Source of the DNA: Bryobacterales bacterium
GTDB lineage: Bacteria > Acidobacteriota > Terriglobia > Bryobacterales > Bryobacteraceae
NCBI GenBank assembly: GCA_003169195.1
Contig: PMQB01000157.1
Span: forward strand, 307-32,670
DNA: 32,364 bases
Direction of reading: 5' to 3'
Both the position numbers and the translations under genes were made by a program. The notes below the pieces were generated by a model that was not told the DNA's origin, did not search any database, and saw only the letters and a list, made by a program, of their open reading frames with translations. Positions 8,459 through 32,189 of this stretch are shown piece after piece (position 1 is the stretch's first letter; every line of letters begins with the position of its first letter).

Positions 8459-9802
8459 CTAGACGGTCGCGCCCTGCGCCGTGTTCACTCGTTCAGGCAC
8501 TACCTTCGATTGCAATCCAGCCTTGGCCAGAACCATATAAACCACAAGTCCCGCCACAAAGCTGTAGACAGCGGCCGGTTGCAGATAAGCCTTGGTTTCT
8601 GCTGAAAGAGGCATGAAGTCAGACGGCAGAATACCGACGATAAAACCCACAACCCATGCGCCGTAACCTGCCAGGTTGACCCCTTCGCGCGGCCCAGACC
8701 ATTTGCGGCCAGAGAGCAGATAATCGGCCATCATCGCGCCGCAAATGGGTCCAAAGGAAGCGCCGATAATGCCAAATAGACCCTTAAGATCGTTTGCCGC
8801 CCCAGTTATTGCTAGAACAGCTGCAACAGCGGCACCGACCATGGCGGACGACAGCCGGGGCACGCCGGGAATCATCGTGGCGAAGCTGTTACCTGCGATA
8901 AAAGAGGACACGCAGGCCGGAGCAATAGAAGCCAACGCAAACAGACCAAACATCGCCGTGGCGACGAAGCCGCCAGTTTGCCCAATCACCGTTTGAAAGT
9001 CCAGATCAGGAATGTTGTAGAGCGCTTTGGCGCCCGCAACAGCCATTAACGGCAACCCGCCGGCGACAAGAATGGCGAGCCCTACACCCACCAAACCGCC
9101 CCAACGGACATCGCTCTCATTTCTGCTGTTCAGACCGAAATCAACACCCGCCGCGCCAGCCGTTGCAAAGAAGCCCACCACCACTTGGATGATCAACACG
9201 AAACCCAGGTAAGGCGCAGGCGTCGGCACCACGTAATGCGAAACGCCACGCGCCGTGCTGGCAAAAACCACAATGATCATGAGCAGCGGAATCCAATTCA
9301 GAAAAGTGGAAAACTTTGAAACATATTGGATACCCTTAACGCCGATGTACCCCATAGCCAGCGCCCAGACGCCGGCGATCACGCTAAAAGACAAACTGCC
9401 CGGTCCCGACTTAGAACCGACGGCGCTGAGCACGAACGAAGCCGACACGTACGCGTTGACTGACATCCAGCCTACTTGCAATACACCCATCAGCAGGCCG
9501 GGCATCAGATAGCCGCCTTTCGTGCCGAACGTAGAACTACCAACAACGTACAGCGGAAGACCGGTTTGCATGCCGAGCATGGCCGGTACCCGGTAGAAAA
9601 GCGCGTAGCTCAGAATACCGGCGACCAGGAGACCGAGTAGGCAGAGCCCAACGCCGGCCCGGTCTAGCGTCCCCACCGCAATCGTTTTATAAAACACGAT
9701 CCAGAGAAAAACTCCGGCGTAGGTCGGCGCAGTGTTCTTATACCAAGGCGCACGATTAGAGGCAGGATTGGGGACCGCCTTGGAAATATAGTCTGGCAAC
9801 AT
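8459..9802 (-). CDS. NCS1-family (CodB-like) nucleobase/hydantoin permease
   Basis: Inner-membrane secondary transporter of the NCS1 family, which imports cytosine, purines, allantoin, hydantoins or related compounds with a cation. The 447 residues form about twelve hydrophobic segments beginning at TYAGVFLWIVFYKTIAVGTL. Family-type features include the first-helix Trp-containing segment, FGTKGGYLMPGLLMGVLQVGWMSVNAY, and the Gly/Ala-rich GVDFGLNSRNESDVRWGGLVG loop. AAGGAG five bases before the ATG supports this start. A perfect TATAAT box lies about 44 bases upstream. It is the first gene of the minus-strand cluster. No nucleobase deaminase or hydantoinase gene is adjacent, so the substrate cannot be narrowed. 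Confidence 0.9.
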   Translation of the reverse strand: MLPDYISKAVPNPASNRAPWYKNTAPTYAGVFLWIVFYKTIAVGTLDRAGVGLCLLGLLVAGILSYALFYRVPAMLGMQTGLPLYVVGSSTFGTKGGYLMPGLLMGVLQVGWMSVNAYVSASFVLSAVGSKSGPGSLSFSVIAGVWALAMGYIGVKGIQYVSKFSTFLNWIPLLMIIVVFASTARGVSHYVVPTPAPYLGFVLIIQVVVGFFATAGAAGVDFGLNSRNESDVRWGGLVGVGLAILVAGGLPLMAVAGAKALYNIPDLDFQTVIGQTGGFVATAMFGLFALASIAPACVSSFIAGNSFATMIPGVPRLSSAMVGAAVAAVLAITGAANDLKGLFGIIGASFGPICGAMMADYLLSGRKWSGPREGVNLAGYGAWVVGFIVGILPSDFMPLSAETKAYLQPAAVYSFVAGLVVYMVLAKAGLQSKVVPERVNTAQGATV

Positions 9803-9915: not shown

Positions 9916-10311
9916 ATGCGACGGCTCTGGGTAGCGTTAGCTTTATCGGTTCTGTTCTGTTCCATGATCGGTGCCGCAGATGGGGTGCCGGGCAGCCAAC
10001 AAGCCTTAGGTCATTGTGGCGCCAGGAAAGACAAAGTAGGTGAATGTTACAAGATACGAGGACGGTTACGGGCGTATGCGGGTTATCCGCGCTGCCGAAT
10101 TTGGCCTGTAGGATCATCGCGCCTTTTAGGCGTAGCCGATCCGAACGCCTTGCCATCCAACGTAGCGTGCGGCGAGGGCTTTGAGGTGTATGCCGATTTC
10201 CTCGTCTGCCCGTTAACAGAAGCCAAGCCGAGCGGCCTGCAGATGGTTTGCGTGGCGAGTGCCGGGAATATTCGGGCGTCGGAAATCAAACCAGATAGCG
10301 GCGGCCGCTAA
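9916..10311 (+). CDS. Small secreted six-cysteine protein, conserved-looking hypothetical
   Basis: 131 residues, function unknown. Residues 1-22 form a signal peptide (MRRLWVALALSVLFCSMIGA). The mature chain has six cysteines (34, 44, 60, 85, 98, 112) and a compact β-like pattern: CYKIRGRLRAYAG, RIWPVGSSRLLGV, EVYADFLVCPLT, GLQMVCVASAGNIR. I have an impression of similar small exported proteins in acidobacteria, but cannot verify it here. An in-frame stop at 9901 limits the start to this ATG; AAAGG abuts it directly, closer than usual. The gene is divergent from the NCS1 permease. Its end overlaps the Hsp70-like gene by four bases with interlocked stops. The signal peptide and even cysteine count argue that it is a true gene. 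Confidence 0.72.
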   Translation: MRRLWVALALSVLFCSMIGAADGVPGSQQALGHCGARKDKVGECYKIRGRLRAYAGYPRCRIWPVGSSRLLGVADPNALPSNVACGEGFEVYADFLVCPLTEAKPSGLQMVCVASAGNIRASEIKPDSGGR

Positions 10312-12640: not shown

Positions 12641-14875
12641 ATGGAAGTAACAAAAGTTTCTAATTCGGCCTCAAAGGCCGCCACCACAGCGAAAGTTGTT
12701 GTTGCCACCACGGTGGCGCTTACCTTTATCAGCTATTGGCGTGGCGCTTCAATCGTTTTGAGCGATCTTGCCTCGTCTATGTTCTACGCGGGCGGCATCG
12801 CAGAAGCGGCGATTGGACCATCCGCCGCCTGGTACGTGCTGTTCGTCATGATCTTCAGTTTCGCCGTGCGTTCCGTTTACATGGAAAGCTGCGGCATGTT
12901 CGTGCGCGGCGGCGTCTACGTGGTGGTTAAAGACAGCATGGGGCCCGTGGTGGCCAAGGCCTCCGTCTCGGCGCTGGTGTTTGATTACATCCTGACCGGG
13001 CCTATCAGCGCCGTCAGCGCCGGACAATATCTGGGCAACCTGGTCAACGAAATTTTCGAGTACGCGCACCGCACTACTCACATCGATCCGAACATGTTCG
13101 CGGTCTTCTTTTCGGTGTTGGTAACTATTTATTTTTGGCGCAGCAACATCAAAGGCATTCACGAATCGAGCGGCGCCGCGTTGAAGATTATGCAGATCAC
13201 CACGGTGATGGTCGTGGCTCTTCTGATTTGGTGCCCGATTACCATTGCCTTGCAAGGCAAGTGGCATTTGCCGCTTTCGCCCATACCCAGCCATTTGAAA
13301 TTCAATGACGATTCCTTGGGCTGGTTTAAAGGCACTGTTTGGTGGACGATTCCGCTTGTCGGCGTGATCATCGCATTCGGCCACTCGCTGCTCTCCATGA
13401 GCGGCTTTGAGACGCTGGCCCAGATCTACCGGGAGATTGCTTCTCCCAAAATGAAGAATCTGAAAATCACCGCAAATATCGTTTGCATCTACGCCATTCT
13501 TTCCACCGGCGTGATTACGATGTTTGCCACGATGATTATCGACAACGATAAGACCCGGTTGAAGTATGTGGACAACCTACTGGGCGGATTGGCGATGAAT
13601 CTGGCCGGACCTGAATTGCTTCGCCTTGGCTTTCACGTTTTTGTGGTGGCGGTGGGCGTGCTGATTCTGGCTGGAGCGGTCAATACCTCCCTGATTGGCG
13701 CCAACGGTGTGATGAATCGCGTGGCGGAAGACGGCGTTCTGCTTGAGGAATTCCGCAAGCCCCATAAAAAATTCGGCACAACCTACCGCATTATCAACTT
13801 CATCACCATCATGCAGATTCTCACCATTGTGCTCAGCCGTGGCGACATGGTTCTGCTGGGTGAAGCGTATGCGTTCGGTGTGGTGTGGAGTTTCGCGCTC
13901 AAGGCCCTGGGAGTACTTGCACTGCGCTTCCAGAGGCACGATCAGGAATACAAAGTTCCATTCAATTTTCACCTCTTTGGCAAAGAGATTCCCGTTGGCC
14001 TCGGCGCCACAACGTTGGTCCTTCTTGCCACCGCTGTGGCCAATCTGTTCTCCAAGCAGTACGCCACCAAGTTCGGTATCGCCTTTACGATCGGCTTTTT
14101 CATTCTGTTTACGATTTCCGAAAAAATCAATCTTCGCCGGCATAAACAGATCCACGAGACGTCGCTAGAAGAATTCAACCTCGAATATCAGCCGCAGGTG
14201 GAAACGGAATCGGTCCACGCGCGCCCCGGCAGCGTGTTGGTAGCCGTTCGCAATATCAACAACATGTCGCATTTGCGGCGCACTTTGCAGCGCACGAATC
14301 TGCGGCGCAACGACATCATCGTAATGACCGTGCGGCCTCTTGGCCCTGACAGCGAATACGACCTGAAAGACGATCAGGTCTTCGGCTCGGATGAGAAATC
14401 GCTTTTCACCTCTGTGGTGAGCATGGCGGAAAAAGAAGGCAAGCCAGTGGAATTGTTGGTGGTGCCGGCCATCAATCCGTTCGACGCGCTGGTGCAGACG
14501 GCCGATCAACTGAAAGTTTCGCGTTTAATCACCGGTGTTTCACCGAAAATGACATCGGACGAACTGGCCCGCCAAATCGGTTTGGCATGGGAAAGATTGC
14601 CCGAGCCGCGGCATCCGTTTTCGCTCGAGATCATCTGTCCCGACAGACCGTCCACGTTCGTCAACTTGGGTCCCCACCCGCCGCGCCTTTGGCCGGAAGA
14701 TGTTGATAAGCTGCACGATATCTGGCTGAAGCTTAGCACCGAAGAGAAGCTTGGATCAAAGCTGCATCATCGCGATATTGTCGGCTATGCGTTGCGCCGG
14801 CTAGAAAGCGAACTCAACAGCAACCAGCACGATGAGATTCTGCAGCAGTTGAATACGGAAGTACGGGATCACTAG
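12641..14875 (+). CDS. APC-family amino-acid permease with C-terminal UspA-like domain
   Basis: A 744-residue inner-membrane transporter. Residues about 15-505 form the APC-fold permease with roughly twelve hydrophobic segments, including FISYWRGASIVLSDLASSMFYAGG near the first helix and FGHSLLSMSGFETLAQIYREI in the sixth. After a charged linker (about 505-535), residues 535-690 look like a universal-stress-protein fold: PGSVLVAVRN, a helix, then VELLVVPAINPFDALVQTADQLKVSRLITG. Permeases with cytosolic UspA tails are known, and the tail is thought to sense nucleotides or regulate transport. The substrate is not evident. The gene converges on the PII gene with stop codons interlocked in CTAG (14872-14875). 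A nitrogen-linked role is inferred from context only. No clear Shine-Dalgarno precedes the ATG. Confidence 0.9.
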   Translation: MEVTKVSNSASKAATTAKVVVATTVALTFISYWRGASIVLSDLASSMFYAGGIAEAAIGPSAAWYVLFVMIFSFAVRSVYMESCGMFVRGGVYVVVKDSMGPVVAKASVSALVFDYILTGPISAVSAGQYLGNLVNEIFEYAHRTTHIDPNMFAVFFSVLVTIYFWRSNIKGIHESSGAALKIMQITTVMVVALLIWCPITIALQGKWHLPLSPIPSHLKFNDDSLGWFKGTVWWTIPLVGVIIAFGHSLLSMSGFETLAQIYREIASPKMKNLKITANIVCIYAILSTGVITMFATMIIDNDKTRLKYVDNLLGGLAMNLAGPELLRLGFHVFVVAVGVLILAGAVNTSLIGANGVMNRVAEDGVLLEEFRKPHKKFGTTYRIINFITIMQILTIVLSRGDMVLLGEAYAFGVVWSFALKALGVLALRFQRHDQEYKVPFNFHLFGKEIPVGLGATTLVLLATAVANLFSKQYATKFGIAFTIGFFILFTISEKINLRRHKQIHETSLEEFNLEYQPQVETESVHARPGSVLVAVRNINNMSHLRRTLQRTNLRRNDIIVMTVRPLGPDSEYDLKDDQVFGSDEKSLFTSVVSMAEKEGKPVELLVVPAINPFDALVQTADQLKVSRLITGVSPKMTSDELARQIGLAWERLPEPRHPFSLEIICPDRPSTFVNLGPHPPRLWPEDVDKLHDIWLKLSTEEKLGSKLHHRDIVGYALRRLESELNSNQHDEILQQLNTEVRDH

Positions 14876-15210
14876 AGAGCCAGTTCACCGCGATCATTGT
14901 TGCGGATGCGAACGGCTTCGCCAATATCGCTGATGAAGATCTTGCCGTCGCCGATCTTGCCGGTCATGGCTGCGGAACGGATCAGCGTTATCACTTCCTC
15001 CAAACGGGAGGACGGCACCACAAGCTCGAGTTTGATCTTTGGGAGAAGATCGAGTTTGTATTCGGAGCCTCGATAAACCTCGGTATGGCCCTTTTGGCGG
15101 CCATGGCCACGCACCTCACTTACGGTCAGCCCTTCGATGCCGGCTCCGGTGAGGGCGTCTTTCACTTCGTCAAGTTTAAAGGGCTGGATAACGGCTTCAA
15201 TCTTCTTCAT
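14872..15210 (-). CDS. glnK: PII nitrogen-regulatory protein (GlnB/GlnK family)
   Basis: Trimeric PII protein that senses ATP/ADP, 2-oxoglutarate and often uridylylation, and typically gates AmtB. The open frame extends to 15288, but AAGGAG six bases before the ATG at 15210 and the canonical opening MKKIEAVIQPFKLDEV fix the start there, giving 112 residues, the normal size. The T-loop RGHGRQKGHTEVYRGSEY carries Y51, the uridylylation tyrosine. The C-terminal GKIGDGKIFI signature is present. It lies downstream of amtB on the same strand, 95 bases away, with an intrinsic terminator in between. GlnK is preferred over GlnB because of the amtB neighbour; the sequence alone does not separate them. 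Confidence 0.97.
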   Translation of the reverse strand: MKKIEAVIQPFKLDEVKDALTGAGIEGLTVSEVRGHGRQKGHTEVYRGSEYKLDLLPKIKLELVVPSSRLEEVITLIRSAAMTGKIGDGKIFISDIGEAVRIRNNDRGELAL

Positions 15211-15251
15211 GATTTGCTCCTTATGCTTTGATCCTTTGAGGCAAATTCGAT

Positions 15252-15292
15252 TAAAAAAGCGAGGTGCCCCGGAGGCTGAAAGGGACACCTCG
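15252..15292 (-). terminator. Intrinsic terminator between amtB and the PII gene
   Basis: On the minus strand CGAGGTGTCCC (15292-15282) pairs with GGGGCACCTCG (15270-15260): an 11-bp stem with one G-U pair and an 11-base loop. A T6 run (15258-15253) follows one base after the stem. It begins 13 bases after the amtB stop and ends about 40 bases before the PII start codon, so it should end or attenuate amtB transcripts before the PII gene. Confidence 0.88.
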
Positions 15293-15305
15293 AAGTGTGG
15301 TAACT

Positions 15306-16988
15306 CTACAAAGCCTGACTTTGCGTTTTCGCGAGCGAGATGCGGGCCGGAGATTCGGCGACCATTCCTGGCTCGGGCGCAATGCCTTCCGGCCGGCCGA
15401 TGGTAGAGATGACATATTCCGGGTAAGCGGAGATGCCGTGCTCGTGAAGATCCAGACCATAACGCTCTCCCTCCTCCGAGACTCGCAGTAGTTTGAAAGC
15501 GTTGACGGCGTACATCACCGCCAGGGCTACTCCGAACGTAGAGAGCGTTATAATCGCGCTGCCTATGGCCTGTGCGGCTAAGACGGTGGTACCGCCGCCA
15601 TAGAACAGACCTTTGAGGGGAGCGGAGTTGTCGGCGGCGAACGGACCAGTTGCGCCGTAATCACCGCAAGCGAACAGTCCTAAAGACAACGTGCCCCAAA
15701 TGCCGCAAAAGCCATGCACTGGAACGGCGCCGATGGGATCATCAATGCGCAGCCACTCGAGTAACTCAACGCCCAGCACCACCAGAACACCGGCAACCCC
15801 GCCCAGCATAATGGCTCCAGCGGGGCTCACCCAATAGCAAGGACAGGTGATGGCTACCAAGCCTGCCAGGAAGCCGTTGACTGTGAAACTCACGTCCCAC
15901 TTCTTGCTGCCGATATAGGCATACGCCATTGCTGTGAGACCAGCGGCGCAAGCGGCCAGAGTCGTATTCGCAGCCACCCGGCCAATACCGGTGAAATCCA
16001 TGGCAGAGAGAGTGCTACCCGGATTGAAGCCATACCAGCCGAACCAGAGAAGCAAACCACCGGAGGCGGCGATGGTCAGATCGTGCGGTTGCATAGGAGC
16101 GCCGCCATCCCGTTTGAATTTTCTCCCAATGCGAGGTCCCAGGACGATCGCTCCGGCGAGTGCGATGAAACCTCCAATGGTGTGAACGACAGTGGAACCT
16201 GCGAAATCGTGGAAACTCGTTCCGAGTGATGGGAGGAAGAATCCCGTGCTGCCCATGGTGGCGAGGAATCCATCCGGACCCCAAGCCCAATGACCAATGA
16301 TGGGATAGATAAATCCTGAGACCGCCACACTGTAGAGCAAATCTCCCACAAAGCCGGTGCGGCCAATCATGGCGCCGGATGTGATGGTGGAGCAAGTGTC
16401 GGCGAAGGCGAATTGAAAAAGCCAGAAGGCTAGAAAGGCAACTCCGGTGCCCTCATAGGTGGCAGGCGCGCCTTGCAGCATGAACCAGTGATACCCAATG
16501 AAGCCGTTGCCGTGGCTGAACATGAACGCGAAGCCAAACGCGTAGAAAAGCAAGCCGCACAAACACGTGTCGACGATACACTCCATGAGTACGTTCACTG
16601 TTTCGCGCGAGCGGCAGAAACCAGCTTCCAGCATGGTAAAGCCCACCTGCATGCCGAACACGAGGAAGGCAGCCACCAGAGTCCAGACAGTGTTGATTGG
16701 ATTGACGATGTCGTTGCCTTTTAGCGCTGGATCGGCGGCAAAGACTTTGAAGCCGAGTAAGTCTGGGTTGATGAGATAGGTGGCGATGGCCAAGACGGCT
16801 AGTCCGGCGACTTTTCCTGCTAATAGTAGGAGGCCATATTTGCGCCATTCCTGCGAGCTGAAGCGGATTTTCAAACGAGTCCAAAGGCTCGGCGTCGTGT
16901 TTGCGGGGCCGAATTTCCTACGCGTTGAAAGCAGTGTGAAGACGATCGCGACTACACTTAGAAAAACAGTGAATATGGTGTTTCCCAT
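15306..16988 (-). CDS. amtB: AmtB ammonium transporter
   Basis: Amt/Mep/Rh ammonium channel, normally trimeric in the inner membrane. The open frame runs to 17114, but AAAGGA five bases before the ATG at 16988 marks the start (MGNTIFTVFLSVV), giving 560 residues; the upstream part is Arg/Leu/Pro-rich and unlikely to be protein. The long N-terminal region (about 100 residues, two hydrophobic segments) precedes the Amt core, which begins at INTVWTLVAAFLVFGMQVGFTMLEAGFCR. Pore landmarks follow: FADTCSTITSGA, GSTVVHTIGGF with a pore histidine, LLWFGWYGFNPGS, and VHGFCGIWGTL with the second pore histidine. The C-terminal tail includes GLDLHEHGISAYPEY, close to the PII-contacting tail consensus. 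Control by the downstream PII protein is therefore likely. Confidence 0.96.
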   Translation of the reverse strand: MGNTIFTVFLSVVAIVFTLLSTRRKFGPANTTPSLWTRLKIRFSSQEWRKYGLLLLAGKVAGLAVLAIATYLINPDLLGFKVFAADPALKGNDIVNPINTVWTLVAAFLVFGMQVGFTMLEAGFCRSRETVNVLMECIVDTCLCGLLFYAFGFAFMFSHGNGFIGYHWFMLQGAPATYEGTGVAFLAFWLFQFAFADTCSTITSGAMIGRTGFVGDLLYSVAVSGFIYPIIGHWAWGPDGFLATMGSTGFFLPSLGTSFHDFAGSTVVHTIGGFIALAGAIVLGPRIGRKFKRDGGAPMQPHDLTIAASGGLLLWFGWYGFNPGSTLSAMDFTGIGRVAANTTLAACAAGLTAMAYAYIGSKKWDVSFTVNGFLAGLVAITCPCYWVSPAGAIMLGGVAGVLVVLGVELLEWLRIDDPIGAVPVHGFCGIWGTLSLGLFACGDYGATGPFAADNSAPLKGLFYGGGTTVLAAQAIGSAIITLSTFGVALAVMYAVNAFKLLRVSEEGERYGLDLHEHGISAYPEYVISTIGRPEGIAPEPGMVAESPARISLAKTQSQAL

Positions 16989-17293
16989 AACTATCCTTTC
17001 GAGACGAAGTTCTGTGCTGAGGGGATGATTGAACCGCAGCAGGCGGGGCTGACCGGTTAGACGGGGAGATCTAAATCGCAAGTTTGGCAGCGGGTAGGAA
17101 GTAAGTCCAATCATTGTCTTGAATTGGGAGAGAAGGGGTTTTTGATACCGCTGTCAATCGATATGGAAACGTGACCGAAAGATAGGTCGCGCTCGGAGGT
17201 TTAGAGCTTCAATCTCCGCAATCAACCCGGAGACTCGCAGGATTGACTGTAGCCGTTCGATAGCAACGGGCGTCTTTTGAAAGAAGACTACGC
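16989..17293. other. Divergent intergenic region between amtB and the histidine kinase gene
   Basis: About 305 bases holding both upstream regions. It includes the amtB ribosome site and a TTGACA on the minus strand (17157-17152), but the hexamer 17 bases beyond is TTCTCT, a poor -10. No GG-N10-GC sigma-54 core was found upstream of amtB. GTCTT/AAGAC (17272-17276/17284-17288) is a weak inverted repeat just before the kinase GTG start. Confidence 0.5.
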
Positions 17294-17923
17294 GTGAAAG
17301 TACAAAACGAAACGAGGGCCACGAGTGTAGTTGCTCAATTCTTGGCGGCGGGTCACCTGGCAATCCTGGCGGGCACGTTGATCTCGATGCTGGCTATTGC
17401 AGTGGCGGATTGGGCGGTGGGTAACGGCGTCTCGCTGGGAGTGCTCTACATTTTTCCCATGATGCTGGGAGGGCTGGCGCTAAGACCGGTGGCGGTTCTC
17501 ACCTTGGCGTTGGTGTGCTCTGTTTTGCGGACCGCTTTCGATACGCCGGGTTCGGCGGCGGAAGTCGATTTACGCTTTGCCTTCGCCACGGTAGCTTATT
17601 TCTGCGCCGGTTTGTTTGTGACTGCTTTGGTTCGCAATCGCAAACTCATTGTGCAACATTTGGCCGATCTGCAGCAGGAACAGGAATTGCGGCAGGGTGC
17701 CGAGCAGCAGTTGAAACTCATGGTGGAAAGTAGTTCAGCGGCTATCCTGACCACAGACCGTGAGGGGCGAGTGCTGGCCGCCAACGATTCCGCAAATACG
17801 ATGTTTGGCCTGGAGCCCCCCAAAATGTTGATCGGTCAAGATATTCGGAGTTATCTGCCGGTGCTCGCCGATGCATTGCAATTGGAGATGGGCTCGCAAG
17901 TCTTTAAAACGGCCGTGCAGTGA
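17294..17923 (+). CDS. Sensor histidine kinase, N-terminal part: membrane region and PAS domain (frameshifted gene)
   Basis: First part of a membrane-bound sensor kinase. It starts with GTG (weak AAGAAG upstream), has three to four hydrophobic segments (about residues 15-120), a Gln/Glu-rich coiled linker, and the beginning of a PAS domain (MVESSSAAILTTDREGRVLAANDSANTMFGLEP). The frame ends at TGA (17921-17923) inside the PAS domain, and the PAS continues in the +1 frame with EALRDNGELFLAHTWFSTY. The two parts together make one normal kinase of about 465 residues. Reading CAG, skipping T, then GAG GCG restores the protein; an ancestral CAG TGC GAG that lost two bases would also explain it. 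It is divergent from amtB. Confidence 0.82.
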   Translation: MKVQNETRATSVVAQFLAAGHLAILAGTLISMLAIAVADWAVGNGVSLGVLYIFPMMLGGLALRPVAVLTLALVCSVLRTAFDTPGSAAEVDLRFAFATVAYFCAGLFVTALVRNRKLIVQHLADLQQEQELRQGAEQQLKLMVESSSAAILTTDREGRVLAANDSANTMFGLEPPKMLIGQDIRSYLPVLADALQLEMGSQVFKTAVQ

Positions 17924-18701
17924 GGCGCTGCGCGACAACGGGGAGCTGTTTTTAGCACACACCTGGTTCTCCACTTATGCGGCAGCCCAAGGCCCACGTC
18001 TGGCGGCGATCGTGGGAGATTCCTCGGAGGAGATGAAAGACAGGGAAGAGCAGAATCTCCGTGAACTCTTAGAGTACAACCGCATTACGGCCGCCGCACT
18101 CTCCCATGAAGTGCGCAATGCCTGCGCCGCGCTTAAGATCCTAGCCGGACACTTGGATGAGAAACGGCATTTGGCGGGTGATGGCGATTACCAGGCGCTA
18201 GTGACTTTGGTCAACGGGTTGGAAAGCGTGGCGGCCATCAGTTTGAAAGCTCGGGCTGAAGGAACTCTTGACCATATGTCGATCGAGACGCTCCTGAATA
18301 ATTTGCGGATCATTGTAGATGCTGAGTGGCGTGATATGGGTGGTACGACTTATTGGCCGAGCAATGCTGAGGGCGTGACCGTGTTTGCCGATCCGCATGG
18401 ATTGTTGCAGGCGATGCTGAACCTGGCGCAAAACAGCCTGCGTGCAGTGAGGGAATGCGAGAGAAAGGAACTGCGGATTGTCGTTCACAACATTGATGGC
18501 CGCGTACTGATACGAGTGACCGATAGCGGAGTGGGCATGAGCGCACCCGATCAACTCTTTCGGCCCTTTCACCCAGGCATGGACGGAACCGGCCTAGGCC
18601 TCTATATTTCGCGCGCCATGATTCGAAGCTTCGGCGGCGAGTTGCGCTACGAACCCGGCGGCGACGGCACCTGTTTTGTCGTTGAGTTACAAATGGTTTA
18701 A
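17871..18701 (+). CDS. Sensor histidine kinase, C-terminal part: end of PAS, HisKA-like and ATPase domains
   Basis: Second part of the frameshifted kinase. Coordinates follow the open frame from the ATG at 17871; family-like sequence starts only near 17922, so that ATG is probably not a real start. The end of the PAS domain reads WFSTYAAAQGPRLAAIVGDSSEEMKDREEQN. The phospho-acceptor His is in ALSHEVRNACAAL (codon 18105-18107). The ATPase domain has an N-box-like LNLAQNSLRAV, G1 VTDSGVGM, F-box LFRPFHPG and G2 GTGLGLYISRAM, all intact. The catalytic half could therefore phosphorylate its partner if the two halves are joined or if it is translated alone as a soluble kinase. The response regulator gene begins three bases downstream. 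Confidence 0.85.
   Translation: MHCNWRWARKSLKRPCSEALRDNGELFLAHTWFSTYAAAQGPRLAAIVGDSSEEMKDREEQNLRELLEYNRITAAALSHEVRNACAALKILAGHLDEKRHLAGDGDYQALVTLVNGLESVAAISLKARAEGTLDHMSIETLLNNLRIIVDAEWRDMGGTTYWPSNAEGVTVFADPHGLLQAMLNLAQNSLRAVRECERKELRIVVHNIDGRVLIRVTDSGVGMSAPDQLFRPFHPGMDGTGLGLYISRAMIRSFGGELRYEPGGDGTCFVVELQMV
17912..17926 (+). other. Frameshift junction in the histidine kinase gene
   Basis: Protein-like sequence passes from frame KTAVQ-stop to the +1 frame EALRDNGE across GTG CAG TGA GGC GCT. A single extra T or a loss of two bases accounts for it. The stop-adjacent +1 slip resembles the geometry of prfB recoding (slip at UGA), but the CUU slippery codon and upstream Shine-Dalgarno-like element of prfB are absent. 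Confidence 0.75.
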
Positions 18702-18704
18702 CGT

Positions 18705-19370
18705 ATGGCCGGCGACGCGGAAAACGCAAACGAGAACGAGATCAAGGTGCTGCTGGTAGATGACCACAGCATGTTTCGAGAAGGACTGGCGCGCCTGCTG
18801 GATAAACAACCGTCGTTCTCGGTGGTAGGGCAATGCGGGACATCGGCGGAAGCGCTGGCGGAGTTGAAGAAGAGCGGCGCCAACATGGTTTTGCTGGATG
18901 TGGATCTAGGGCGCGAACGGGCCTTGGATTTCGTTCTAGAAGCGCGCAAGCGGGGATTCGAAGGTAAGGTGTTGGTGGTGACGGCGGGCGTTAGTGGTGC
19001 CGAGGCAGTGCAATTGGTGCAATCAGGCGTAGCTGGCATTTTGCACAAGTATCACTCTGGCGATGAGTTGCGCACGGCCATCCGGCAAGTAGCGGGCGGC
19101 GGCGTTTGGCTGGACGATGAATATTTGCCGGCTATCTTTCGAACAGTGGACCGAACGAGGCCCTCGGCGAAACCGCAATTGGCGGAACGCGAGAAGGCGA
19201 TTTTGCGGTTTATTTTTCAAGGTAAGACGAATAAAGAAATCGGCGTACAGTTGGAAATCTCGGAAGGCGCAGTGAAAGCGGCGCTGCGTCAGCTCTTCGA
19301 TAAGTTGGGCGTCCGTACGCGTTCACAGTTGGTAAAGGTGGCCCTAGAGCAATACCGTGAACAGTTGTAG
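18705..19370 (+). CDS. NarL/LuxR-type response regulator
   Basis: DNA-binding partner of the preceding kinase. The receiver domain (residues about 13-130) has acidic D19/D20 (VLLVDDHSMFREGL), phospho-acceptor D65 in MVLLDVDLG, and the conserved lysine K115 in GILHKYHSGDEL. A linker leads to a LuxR/NarL helix-turn-helix at about 155-221 (LAEREKAILRFIFQGKTNKEIGVQLEISEGAVKAALRQLFDKLGVRTRSQLVKVA), in which the recognition helix is recognisable. Length 221 is normal. It begins three bases after the kinase stop without its own Shine-Dalgarno, so translation is probably coupled. Target genes are unknown; autoregulation or control of the neighbouring amtB is possible but not shown. Confidence 0.94.
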   Translation: MAGDAENANENEIKVLLVDDHSMFREGLARLLDKQPSFSVVGQCGTSAEALAELKKSGANMVLLDVDLGRERALDFVLEARKRGFEGKVLVVTAGVSGAEAVQLVQSGVAGILHKYHSGDELRTAIRQVAGGGVWLDDEYLPAIFRTVDRTRPSAKPQLAEREKAILRFIFQGKTNKEIGVQLEISEGAVKAALRQLFDKLGVRTRSQLVKVALEQYREQL

Positions 19371-19371
19371 G

Positions 19372-19590
19372 CTAGCCTTCGGAAACAATCTGTTCCGATT
19401 CGAATTGATTTCGAAACTCAGCCTCGGCCGAGTGCAGAAGTTGGGTGGCTTCACGTTCCGTTTGCGCTACGGCGAGCAAGATATCCGCAATCGCATCCAC
19501 CGCACTGGCGTAGGAATCATTGCCGGTAAGAGTGCGGTATCTCTTGGTGGTTTCTTCGCCCCGGCGTTTGCGTTCTTTGATGGTAACCAT
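19372..19590 (-). CDS. Small hypothetical protein (72 residues)
   Basis: Not recognised. The frame opens with TTG at 19641, but the more natural start is the ATG at 19590, giving MVTIKERKRRGEETTKRYRT and a 72-residue product. It has a basic N-terminus and an amphipathic helical remainder (AVDAIADILLAVAQTEREATQLLHSAEAEFRNQFE). There is no signal peptide. Ribosome-site support is weak (GAG near -6). It converges on the response regulator gene with a one-base gap (TAG G CTA) and diverges from the SulP gene. The helix-like composition and neat packing favour a real gene, but conservation would be needed to be sure. Confidence 0.5.
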   Translation of the reverse strand: MVTIKERKRRGEETTKRYRTLTGNDSYASAVDAIADILLAVAQTEREATQLLHSAEAEFRNQFESEQIVSEG

Positions 19591-19680
19591 GCTCAGCAAT
19601 GATAATAGCCGATTTGGTGAAGCGGTAGAATCGAGATTCAAAGTGTTTCAAAGCATAGGCATTGGGATCGAGAGCATCGC

Positions 19681-21390
19681 GTGGCTTTAGCTGAGCGCTG
19701 GTTGCCCAAGTCGTTTCTGGCACTGCGTCACTACACAGTGCAAGACTTCGGGGCCGATCTGTTGGCGGGGTTGACCGTCGGCTTGGTAGCACTTCCTCTA
19801 TCCATGGCGTTCGGCATTTCGTCGGGTGTCACGCCGCAGGCAGGCATCTACACGGGCGTTGTAGCCGGGTTCTTGATTTCTGCCTTCGGTGGATCGCGCA
19901 TGCAGATTGGCGGTCCTACCGGTGCGTTCGTTGTCATCGTAGCGGGCATCGTGGCCAAGTTCGGCATCTCGGGGTTGGCCTTGGTCACACTCATGGCGGG
20001 CATCATGCTCGTCTTCATGGGGATCACCGGGCTGGGCGCGGCGGTCAAATTTATTCCGCGGCCTGTAACCATTGGGTTCACCAACGGTATTGCACTGCTG
20101 ATCGCGTCAACGCAGATTAAAGATTTTTTCGGTTTGACTACCGGTCCGGTTCCCAGTGTTTTTGTGGAACGCATGAAGGTGCTGGGAGAAGCTTTCCGGA
20201 CGATGAGTTGGCCAGCCGTCTTGGTGGGCGGCCTTTCATTAGCGCTAATTTTGCTTTGGCCGCGCGTAACGAAACGTGTGCCGGGGTCGATTATTGCCTT
20301 GCTTGTTTCCACCTTGGCTGTGACCTTGTTAAAGCTGCCGCTAGAGACGATTGGCAGCAAGTTTGGCGGTATACCCAGCGGCTTCCCGCATTTTCAATTT
20401 CCCGAGTTTCATTCCGAACACATTCTCCCCTTGATTTCACCGGCGTTCACTGTGGCCTTGCTGGCGGCAGTGGAGAGCCTTTTATCGGCGGTGGTTTCCG
20501 ATAGCATGAGCGGCGACCGGCACAATTCAAACGTGGAATTGATCGCCCAAGGTTTGGCCAACATGGTCTCGCCTTTGTTCGGCGGCATTCCCGCAACGGG
20601 CGCGATTGCCCGCACCGCTACCAATATTCGGTCAGGCGCACGTACGCCGGTGGCCGGCATGATTCACGCGCTTACGCTGTTGGCTATTTTGCTGGTCGCG
20701 GCCCCGCTGGCGCGTTTTATCCCTTTGGCCACGCTGGCGGCCATCTTGTTCGTCGTGGCCTACAACATGGGCGAGTGGCGCGAGATTGGCACCATTGTGC
20801 GCTTGTCGAGACAGGATATTGCCGTTTGGGCCGCCACGTTCTCGTTGACCGTGCTGGCCGATCTTACCGTGGCCGTGGAAGTAGGCATGATGCTGGCCGC
20901 GCTGCTCTACATCTACCGCATTTCCCAGACCACCACGGTTGTGCCTGTCACCGGTGAGTACATCGAAGAGGGCCGGCCGCATATTTTGCAGGATAAGCAA
21001 CTGCCTCCTTACGTCACTATCTTGCGCATCCACGGGCCGTTTTTGTTTGGCACAACGGAAAAACTCGAAGACGCTACCCATGACCTGCAACGCTACGGTC
21101 AGGTGGTGGTGGTGCGGTTGCGCAACATGACCGCGTTGGATGCTACGGGCTTGCACGCATTAGAGAAACTTTCGGAACGCTTACGCAAATCGGGACGGAC
21201 GCTGTTGTTGTGCGGGGCGCGCGATCAACCGCTGGCTATGTTATCGAGCGGCGATTTTCTGGATCATCTGGGACGCCAGAATCTTCTGCCACACGTGGAA
21301 GCCGCCATTGAGCGAGCCAAACAGATTAACGCAGCTTTCGGCGGCGTGGGTTCGGAAATGGCGGACGATTTTTCGCGCAGTTCCCTGTAG
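19681..21390 (+). CDS. SulP-family anion transporter with C-terminal STAS domain
   Basis: Inner-membrane transporter of the SLC26/SulP family, importing sulfate, bicarbonate or other anions. The GTG start gives 569 residues. The membrane core begins at DLLAGLTVGLVALPLSMAFGISSGVTPQAGIYTG, the family's signature region, and continues through GGPTGAFVVIVAGIV and about ten to twelve more hydrophobic stretches to about residue 410. The cytosolic STAS domain occupies about 430-550 (TILRIHGPFLFGTTEKLEDA, VVVVRLRNMTALDATGLHALEKL). No carbonic anhydrase or sulfate-assimilation gene is adjacent, so the anion is unknown. Upstream spacing shows only a weak purine stretch (GAGAG) for ribosome binding. Confidence 0.94.
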   Translation: MALAERWLPKSFLALRHYTVQDFGADLLAGLTVGLVALPLSMAFGISSGVTPQAGIYTGVVAGFLISAFGGSRMQIGGPTGAFVVIVAGIVAKFGISGLALVTLMAGIMLVFMGITGLGAAVKFIPRPVTIGFTNGIALLIASTQIKDFFGLTTGPVPSVFVERMKVLGEAFRTMSWPAVLVGGLSLALILLWPRVTKRVPGSIIALLVSTLAVTLLKLPLETIGSKFGGIPSGFPHFQFPEFHSEHILPLISPAFTVALLAAVESLLSAVVSDSMSGDRHNSNVELIAQGLANMVSPLFGGIPATGAIARTATNIRSGARTPVAGMIHALTLLAILLVAAPLARFIPLATLAAILFVVAYNMGEWREIGTIVRLSRQDIAVWAATFSLTVLADLTVAVEVGMMLAALLYIYRISQTTTVVPVTGEYIEEGRPHILQDKQLPPYVTILRIHGPFLFGTTEKLEDATHDLQRYGQVVVVRLRNMTALDATGLHALEKLSERLRKSGRTLLLCGARDQPLAMLSSGDFLDHLGRQNLLPHVEAAIERAKQINAAFGGVGSEMADDFSRSSL

Positions 21391-31862: not shown

Positions 31863-32189
31863 ATGCGCGTCTTCATCAGCCACTCCTCCGTCGACAAACC
31901 CGCCGTCCTCCCCCTCGCCGACGCCCTCCGCGCCCGCGGCATCGACGCCTGGCTCGACCAATACCAAATCGCCCCCTTCGCCGACATCGTCGCCCGCATC
32001 AACGCCGGCCTCTCACCCCATCGCCGAGCGGCTCTCCCAACCGACGAACCCATCCTCGTCCGTCTCCGCGAACGCGTCCAAAAATCCAAATCCACCACAA
32101 ACGCTGAATTGCAACCGCAAAGTTCATATCCCTCCGGTCATTCGGATCGCACCCCGAACTCGATTCCACGATTTGTACCGAGACCCTAA
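31863..32189 (+). pseudogene. Truncated TIR-domain protein gene
   Basis: The first 50 residues are a good TIR start: MRVFISHSSVDKPAVLPLADALRARG, then IDAWLDQYQIAPFADIVARINAGL, covering the first strand, BB-loop region and second helix. After AGL the expected strand (a GLIVFS-type segment) and the rest of the domain, including the catalytic glutamate helix, are missing; instead comes SPHRRAALPTDEP and a low-complexity Ser/Pro/Arg tail. I looked in the other plus-strand frames and found no continuation, so this is a deletion or replacement rather than a simple frameshift. TIR domains cleave NAD or signal in anti-phage defence; this copy should be inactive. There is no ribosome site, and base use is very C-rich. 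Confidence 0.65.

Follow-up and report, generated by a model that had tools for sequence, protein, structure and literature searches.

Several described systems bear on a gene that changes its reading frame at a stop codon. The prfB gene carries a programmed +1 frameshift, and its site, as given in the available part of the source, consists of an AGGGGG-like element, a CTTT that follows after three bases, and a TGA codon with C as the next base (PMC12421855). Among the causes given for frame transitions restricted to one genome in the accessible text of Antonov et al. (2013; PMC3711429) are recent indels and sequencing errors. In Yersinia rcsD, a phosphorelay gene, a frameshift leaves the C-terminal phosphotransfer part open, and the excerpt at hand reports the production of the fragment as well as of the full-length protein (PMC10191623). 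GrtK/GrtR is a known ammonia-sensing pair, as stated in the portion of PMC12918730 that was available.

Here we describe a sensor kinase gene in a 32,364-nucleotide stretch of DNA (referred to as the window) from the draft genome of a Bryobacterales bacterium (GCA_003169195.1, contig PMQB01000157.1). It resembles prfB in that the frame changes by +1 at a TGA codon, whereas the AGGGGG-like element, CTTT, TGAC and the broad conservation described for prfB are all absent from the kinase site. With the singleton frameshifted genes and pseudogenes in the consulted part of PMC3711429 it shares the restriction to one gene in one genome, the intact relatives and the lack of a recoding motif; there is no difference in principle, apart from the fact that the kinase lesion falls on a 12-base intragenic repeat. 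The parallel to rcsD lies in a frameshifted phosphorelay gene with an open C-terminal part, and differs in that the window kinase is known here from sequence alone. A literature search, mostly of papers accessible without subscription, turned up no mention of this kinase or of its frame break.

A membrane sensor kinase gene in two reading frames

As the preliminary description had claimed, the kinase is split over two frames: ORF1 stops at a TGA inside the PAS domain and the remainder follows in the +1 frame, overlapping ORF1 (Table 1). The ORF2 frame is open from a TGA at 17829-17831 onwards, has a second in-frame ATG at 18033 and closes with a TAA at 18699-18701. The response regulator behind it is intact, again as proposed. 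A search for RNA families in the window gave no match at gathering thresholds.

Table 1. Features of the kinase locus (positions in the window)
Feature	Position	Strand	Remarks
P-II nitrogen regulatory protein (PF00543)	14872-15288	-	
Ammonium transporter (PF00909)	15306-17114	-	divergent from the kinase
ORF1, membrane N-terminus and first part of PAS	17294-17923	+	GTG start, 209 aa, TGA stop at 17921-17923
ORF2, rest of PAS, phosphotransfer helices with H271, HATPase_c	17871-18701	+	276 aa from the first ATG (17871)
12-mer at the break	17914-17925	+	exact copy of 18441-18452
Frame break	17918-17930	+	two bases short compared with the intact relatives; lies within strand 205-212 of the modelled PAS domain
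Second copy of the 12-mer	18441-18452	+	in part coding residues after the N box; possible template
Response regulator, receiver and LuxR-type (GerE) HTH	18705-19370	+	intact; begins 3 bases past the kinase stop; no obvious SD by eye

A single four-base step at the stop joins both ORFs into one protein of 468 amino acids. The joined sequence starts with three hydrophobic segments in a simple hydropathy scan and matches two Pfam profiles above their cut-offs, PAS (PF00989, E 9e-09, residues 139-233), which runs across the junction, and HATPase_c (PF02518, E 2.6e-17, residues 366-466). Together with the conserved phospho-accepting H box these are the features of a membrane PAS sensor histidine kinase; the HisKA models of Pfam gave no match at E 0.001. 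Taken separately, ORF1 covers just the first half of the PAS profile and ORF2 matches the ATPase domain alone. Among solved structures, phmmer matched the sensor protein 3a0r (E 4.7e-16, residues 143-465) and ZraS (9jfj, E 1.4e-13, residues 254-463), both distant relatives that leave the membrane part of the window kinase unmatched.

A structure model of the joined protein reached a mean pLDDT of 83.4 and a pTM of 0.44, so that the arrangement of the domains in the model is uncertain. In this model the break falls inside the PAS strand 205-212 (mean pLDDT 69 for residues 201-210), and ORF2 contributes the next two PAS strands as well as the long helix (residues 244-291) that carries H271.

Intact relatives and the possible origin of the break

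Relatives of the kinase were collected from 60 genomes at E 1e-20 and from 237 genomes of the family at E 1e-105, with matches in 20 and 30 genomes, respectively, in each case including the genome of the window. The aligned set contains 46 relatives, one of them a paralogue from the same genome. Nine partial matches (about residues 21-259) were left out of the alignment and are free of internal stops. Second copies in G205, G194 and G196 also stand outside it; two of these (L090, L092) entered the comparison of invariant columns described below and the third (L128) the reading of gene neighbourhoods. The closest full-length relative is 54% identical to the joined kinase and aligns over nearly its whole length, which shows that the two halves are one gene and not a chance arrangement.

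All 46 relatives pass the position of the break in one frame, and the single TAA seen in one of them (L052) sits at its first aligned codon. Between the flanking residues every relative has four residues, compared with three residues and one base in the window. The additional residue is Cys in 37 relatives, Ser in four, Gly in two and Thr, Leu or Ile in one each. The window is therefore two bases short, and the loss of two bases, one of the alternatives named in the preliminary description, is supported by the alignment of homologues that it had suggested: the extra residue is universal and the shift is found in none. Compared with its intact homologues the gene carries a frame-breaking indel, one of the marks of an indel-broken gene (pseudogene).

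We read the locus as a kinase gene broken by an indel, with a net loss of two bases in the PAS domain that was probably a recent real mutation in this lineage (probability about 0.6). The two bases would then be missing from the DNA of the organism itself. Ribosomes would stop at the TGA and release a membrane stub of 209 residues lacking the catalytic part; since translation would end there, no full-length sensor would be made. The stub presumably has no function, and the regulator would either be without its own sensor or be served by another kinase.

The main competitor is an assembly or consensus error, with both bases present in the organism and the kinase intact. It is a serious possibility, although a real mutation is more likely and the data do not decide between the two. 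The draft genome (7.82 Mb in 704 contigs, 89.86% complete, 6.34% contaminated) gives room for such an error, and the gene shows only this one frame break in 1.41 kb, has normal codon usage in both halves and keeps its catalytic residues as well as the tight coupling to the regulator. In the part of Antonov et al. (2013) that was available, singleton frameshifts backed by BLASTp are moreover expected to be sequencing errors and not indel mutations (PMC3711429). On the other hand, the break does not lie in a homopolymer and coincides with an exact 12-base repeat. In addition, six genes of the window (the permease at 8459-9802, the ORF at 9916-10311, and the genes for an Hsp70-like protein, an M23 peptidase, an APC permease and SulP) showed no frame change against the same-genus genome G012 in tblastn. 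A net loss of two bases is also an unusual error in short-read assemblies, which would count against this explanation if the draft was built from short reads. The adjoining SulP gene has its best match among the 60 genomes in G012 (91% identity), which supports the view that the contig belongs with its genus.

The repeat offers a possible source of the lesion. The 12-mer at the break occurs once more in the window, 527 bases downstream on the same strand of the same gene. In simulations on this window, 4 of 3000 random two-base deletions produced a comparable repeat within 1 kb, and 10 of 3000 undisturbed positions had one. Moreover, the codon two before the stop encodes Val, which only three of the 46 relatives have at this position (Ala in 27, Met in nine). 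A short templated event, in which the downstream copy was used, is a possible, unproven cause of the two-base loss; copying from it would explain the missing bases and perhaps the Val codon too, a post hoc idea that we regard as a hint only.

The preliminary description had considered all functional motifs intact. For the catalytic residues this is correct, as H271 and N380 (both in 46/46 relatives) and D410 (45/46) are kept. It does not extend to every conserved site: of 81 columns that do not vary among 18 close relatives, nine differ in the window kinase, one of the nine being the missing residue. This is the highest number among the 19 kinase sequences, followed by 5 of 77 in two sequences, and the window regulator departs at one of 50 such columns (others 0 to 3). 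Relative-rate tests against the sister L085 point in the same direction, with a faster kinase for 17 of 17 outgroups (p 0.042 or less) and a faster regulator for none of the 17 at p<0.05, the outgroups not being independent in either case. The rate excess of the kinase was seen in both halves (p<0.05 with 10/17 outgroups for the N-terminal and 14/17 for the C-terminal half; 0/17 for the membrane part) and is thus not confined to the untranslated half.

A control on a fixed topology gave a different picture. In this analysis of 18 of the 19 sequences, L096 was left out because its regulator is not the neighbour of its kinase (that regulator is included in the invariant-column and relative-rate comparisons). 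Among the kinase branches that of the window is the longest (0.755), its regulator branch is long as well (0.391), and the kinase:regulator ratio of 1.93 ranks only fifth of 18, with the ratio of L094 being meaningless owing to a regulator branch near zero. As this control does not single out the window kinase, decay beyond the break is unproven. In codon usage, both kinase halves stay inside the range spanned by the 25 other genes scored in the window. With the rest of the frame and the codon usage normal and the kinase not singled out, the break would be either recent or not real.

Readings with translation beyond or across the break

The C-terminal half could also be translated on its own from the ATG at 17871 or 18033, giving a soluble kinase, devoid of the membrane sensor, that would phosphorylate the regulator regardless of any signal. 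We consider this improbable. The sequence GGAGGAG stands immediately 5' of the ATG at 18033, which opens at the predicted phosphotransfer helix 244-291 of the structure model, and the regulator is normally conserved despite its start close behind the kinase stop without an obvious SD. There is also a precedent in rcsD, where a frameshift gave rise to a separate C-terminal phosphotransfer protein, as far as the excerpt of PMC10191623 goes. However, GGAGG is only two bases away from the ATG at 18033 and the ATG at 17871 has no SD. Furthermore, only 16 of the 46 relatives share Met 247, and of these only five have GGAGG in front of it; with both elements so poorly conserved, the start at 18033 seems to be a side effect of the coding sequence, and a conserved internal start at this position was rejected. 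It is slightly more doubtful still that the break is both real and useful, the cut in the PAS domain releasing a soluble phosphotransfer-ATPase half that starts internally and is coupled to the regulator, which would make the ammonium-uptake module independent of its membrane sensor.

The preliminary description had further considered real +1 recoding similar to prfB, and the switch indeed occurs exactly at the TGA stop and in the +1 direction. Nevertheless, a programmed +1 ribosomal frameshift at CAG TGA G is practically excluded. None of the 46 aligned relatives shares the break, all of them carrying the extra residue instead, and a +1 slip would yield a protein one residue shorter than every one of them. 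The site reads ACGGCCGTGCAG TGA G, so the stop is followed by G and not by C; no SD-like or AGG-type element was found just upstream of the stop in ACGGCCGTGCAG, and CAG TGA G takes the place of a slippery P-site codon (CTT T) with a weak TGAC stop. From base pairing, the Gln tRNA on CAG would be expected to re-pair poorly with AGT. The 80 bases past the stop fold no better than shuffled sequences (z -0.12), which leaves the site without a downstream structure as well. A conserved programmed frameshift is thereby refuted.

As a control we inspected prfB itself. A family match was present in 20 of 20 genomes and exceeded the cut-off in 15 (the genome of the window not among them), from which 12 loci were obtained. 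All 12 contain the motif TATCTTTGAC, including CTTTGAC, near the start of the gene, the comparison covering the motif only. This group has thus conserved a genuine +1 site, which the site in the kinase gene does not resemble. The case amounts to a clean negative: a break at a stop codon looks like recoding at first sight, and alignment with the relatives accounts for it by a shortfall of two bases. Plain readthrough of the TGA was rejected, because the homologous sequence past the break lies in the +1 frame and not in that of ORF1.

Ammonium transporter neighbourhood and distribution in the genus

The family search listed 32 matches outside the genome of the window, none of them in its genus, and we read the neighbourhoods of all 32. 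In the 18 closest loci (at least 46% identity) an ammonium transporter was present in 18 of 18 stretches read; it is 70-86% identical to that of the window in 14 loci and 29-40% in the other four. PII was found in 14 of these 18 loci, and the regulator lies directly beside the kinase in 17. For the other 14 loci the transporter was found in none at E 1e-12 and the regulator was present, with some short contigs, such as the 4 kb of L133, restricting the view of the neighbours. Four more distant kinase/regulator pairs within the genus, one of them in the same genome, likewise had no transporter (0/4). The occurrence with the 18 closest loci and with none of the other 14 makes the transporter a marker of the subfamily; as judged from sequence comparison and gene neighbourhood, the kinase/LuxR-type regulator pairs next to an ammonium transporter form a subfamily of their own, to which the window gene belongs. 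This neighbourhood suggests that the pair likely has a role in ammonium uptake, and the PAS kinase/LuxR-type regulator subfamily may control that uptake.

PII, transporter, kinase and regulator form a block at 14872-19370, and most of the 18 closest loci outside the genus have all four together. Within the genus, none of 16 genomes had a kinase match at E 1e-105, and their best regulator match was 45% identical. In G012 the flanks are collinear with the window (77-80% DNA identity) and 73 bases replace the 4,496 bases with the four genes. G014 has the transporter (84%) and no kinase match in the 12 kb read, while the contig of G015 ends inside the transporter and is uninformative on the kinase. 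By these comparisons the block has a patchy distribution among the genomes of the genus, which could reflect either gain or loss. A mobile element enclosing the block was rejected, since no pair among the repeats of at least 14 bases reported for 14700-19700 lies at both block edges.

Three minor observations concern other genes of the window and of the related assemblies. At 11006-11917 of L096 (G196) the transporter match lacks residues of about 291-506, as if it were internally deleted. The APC permease match at 2024-4208 of L100 (G075) shifts frame at residue 653, another break among the assemblies of this group. Finally, positions 31863-32189 of the window hold the start of a TIR_2 gene in which only 53 of 122 profile positions are matched; by eye, no forward frame has a TIR-like continuation up to the end of the window, and the gene thus looks truncated.
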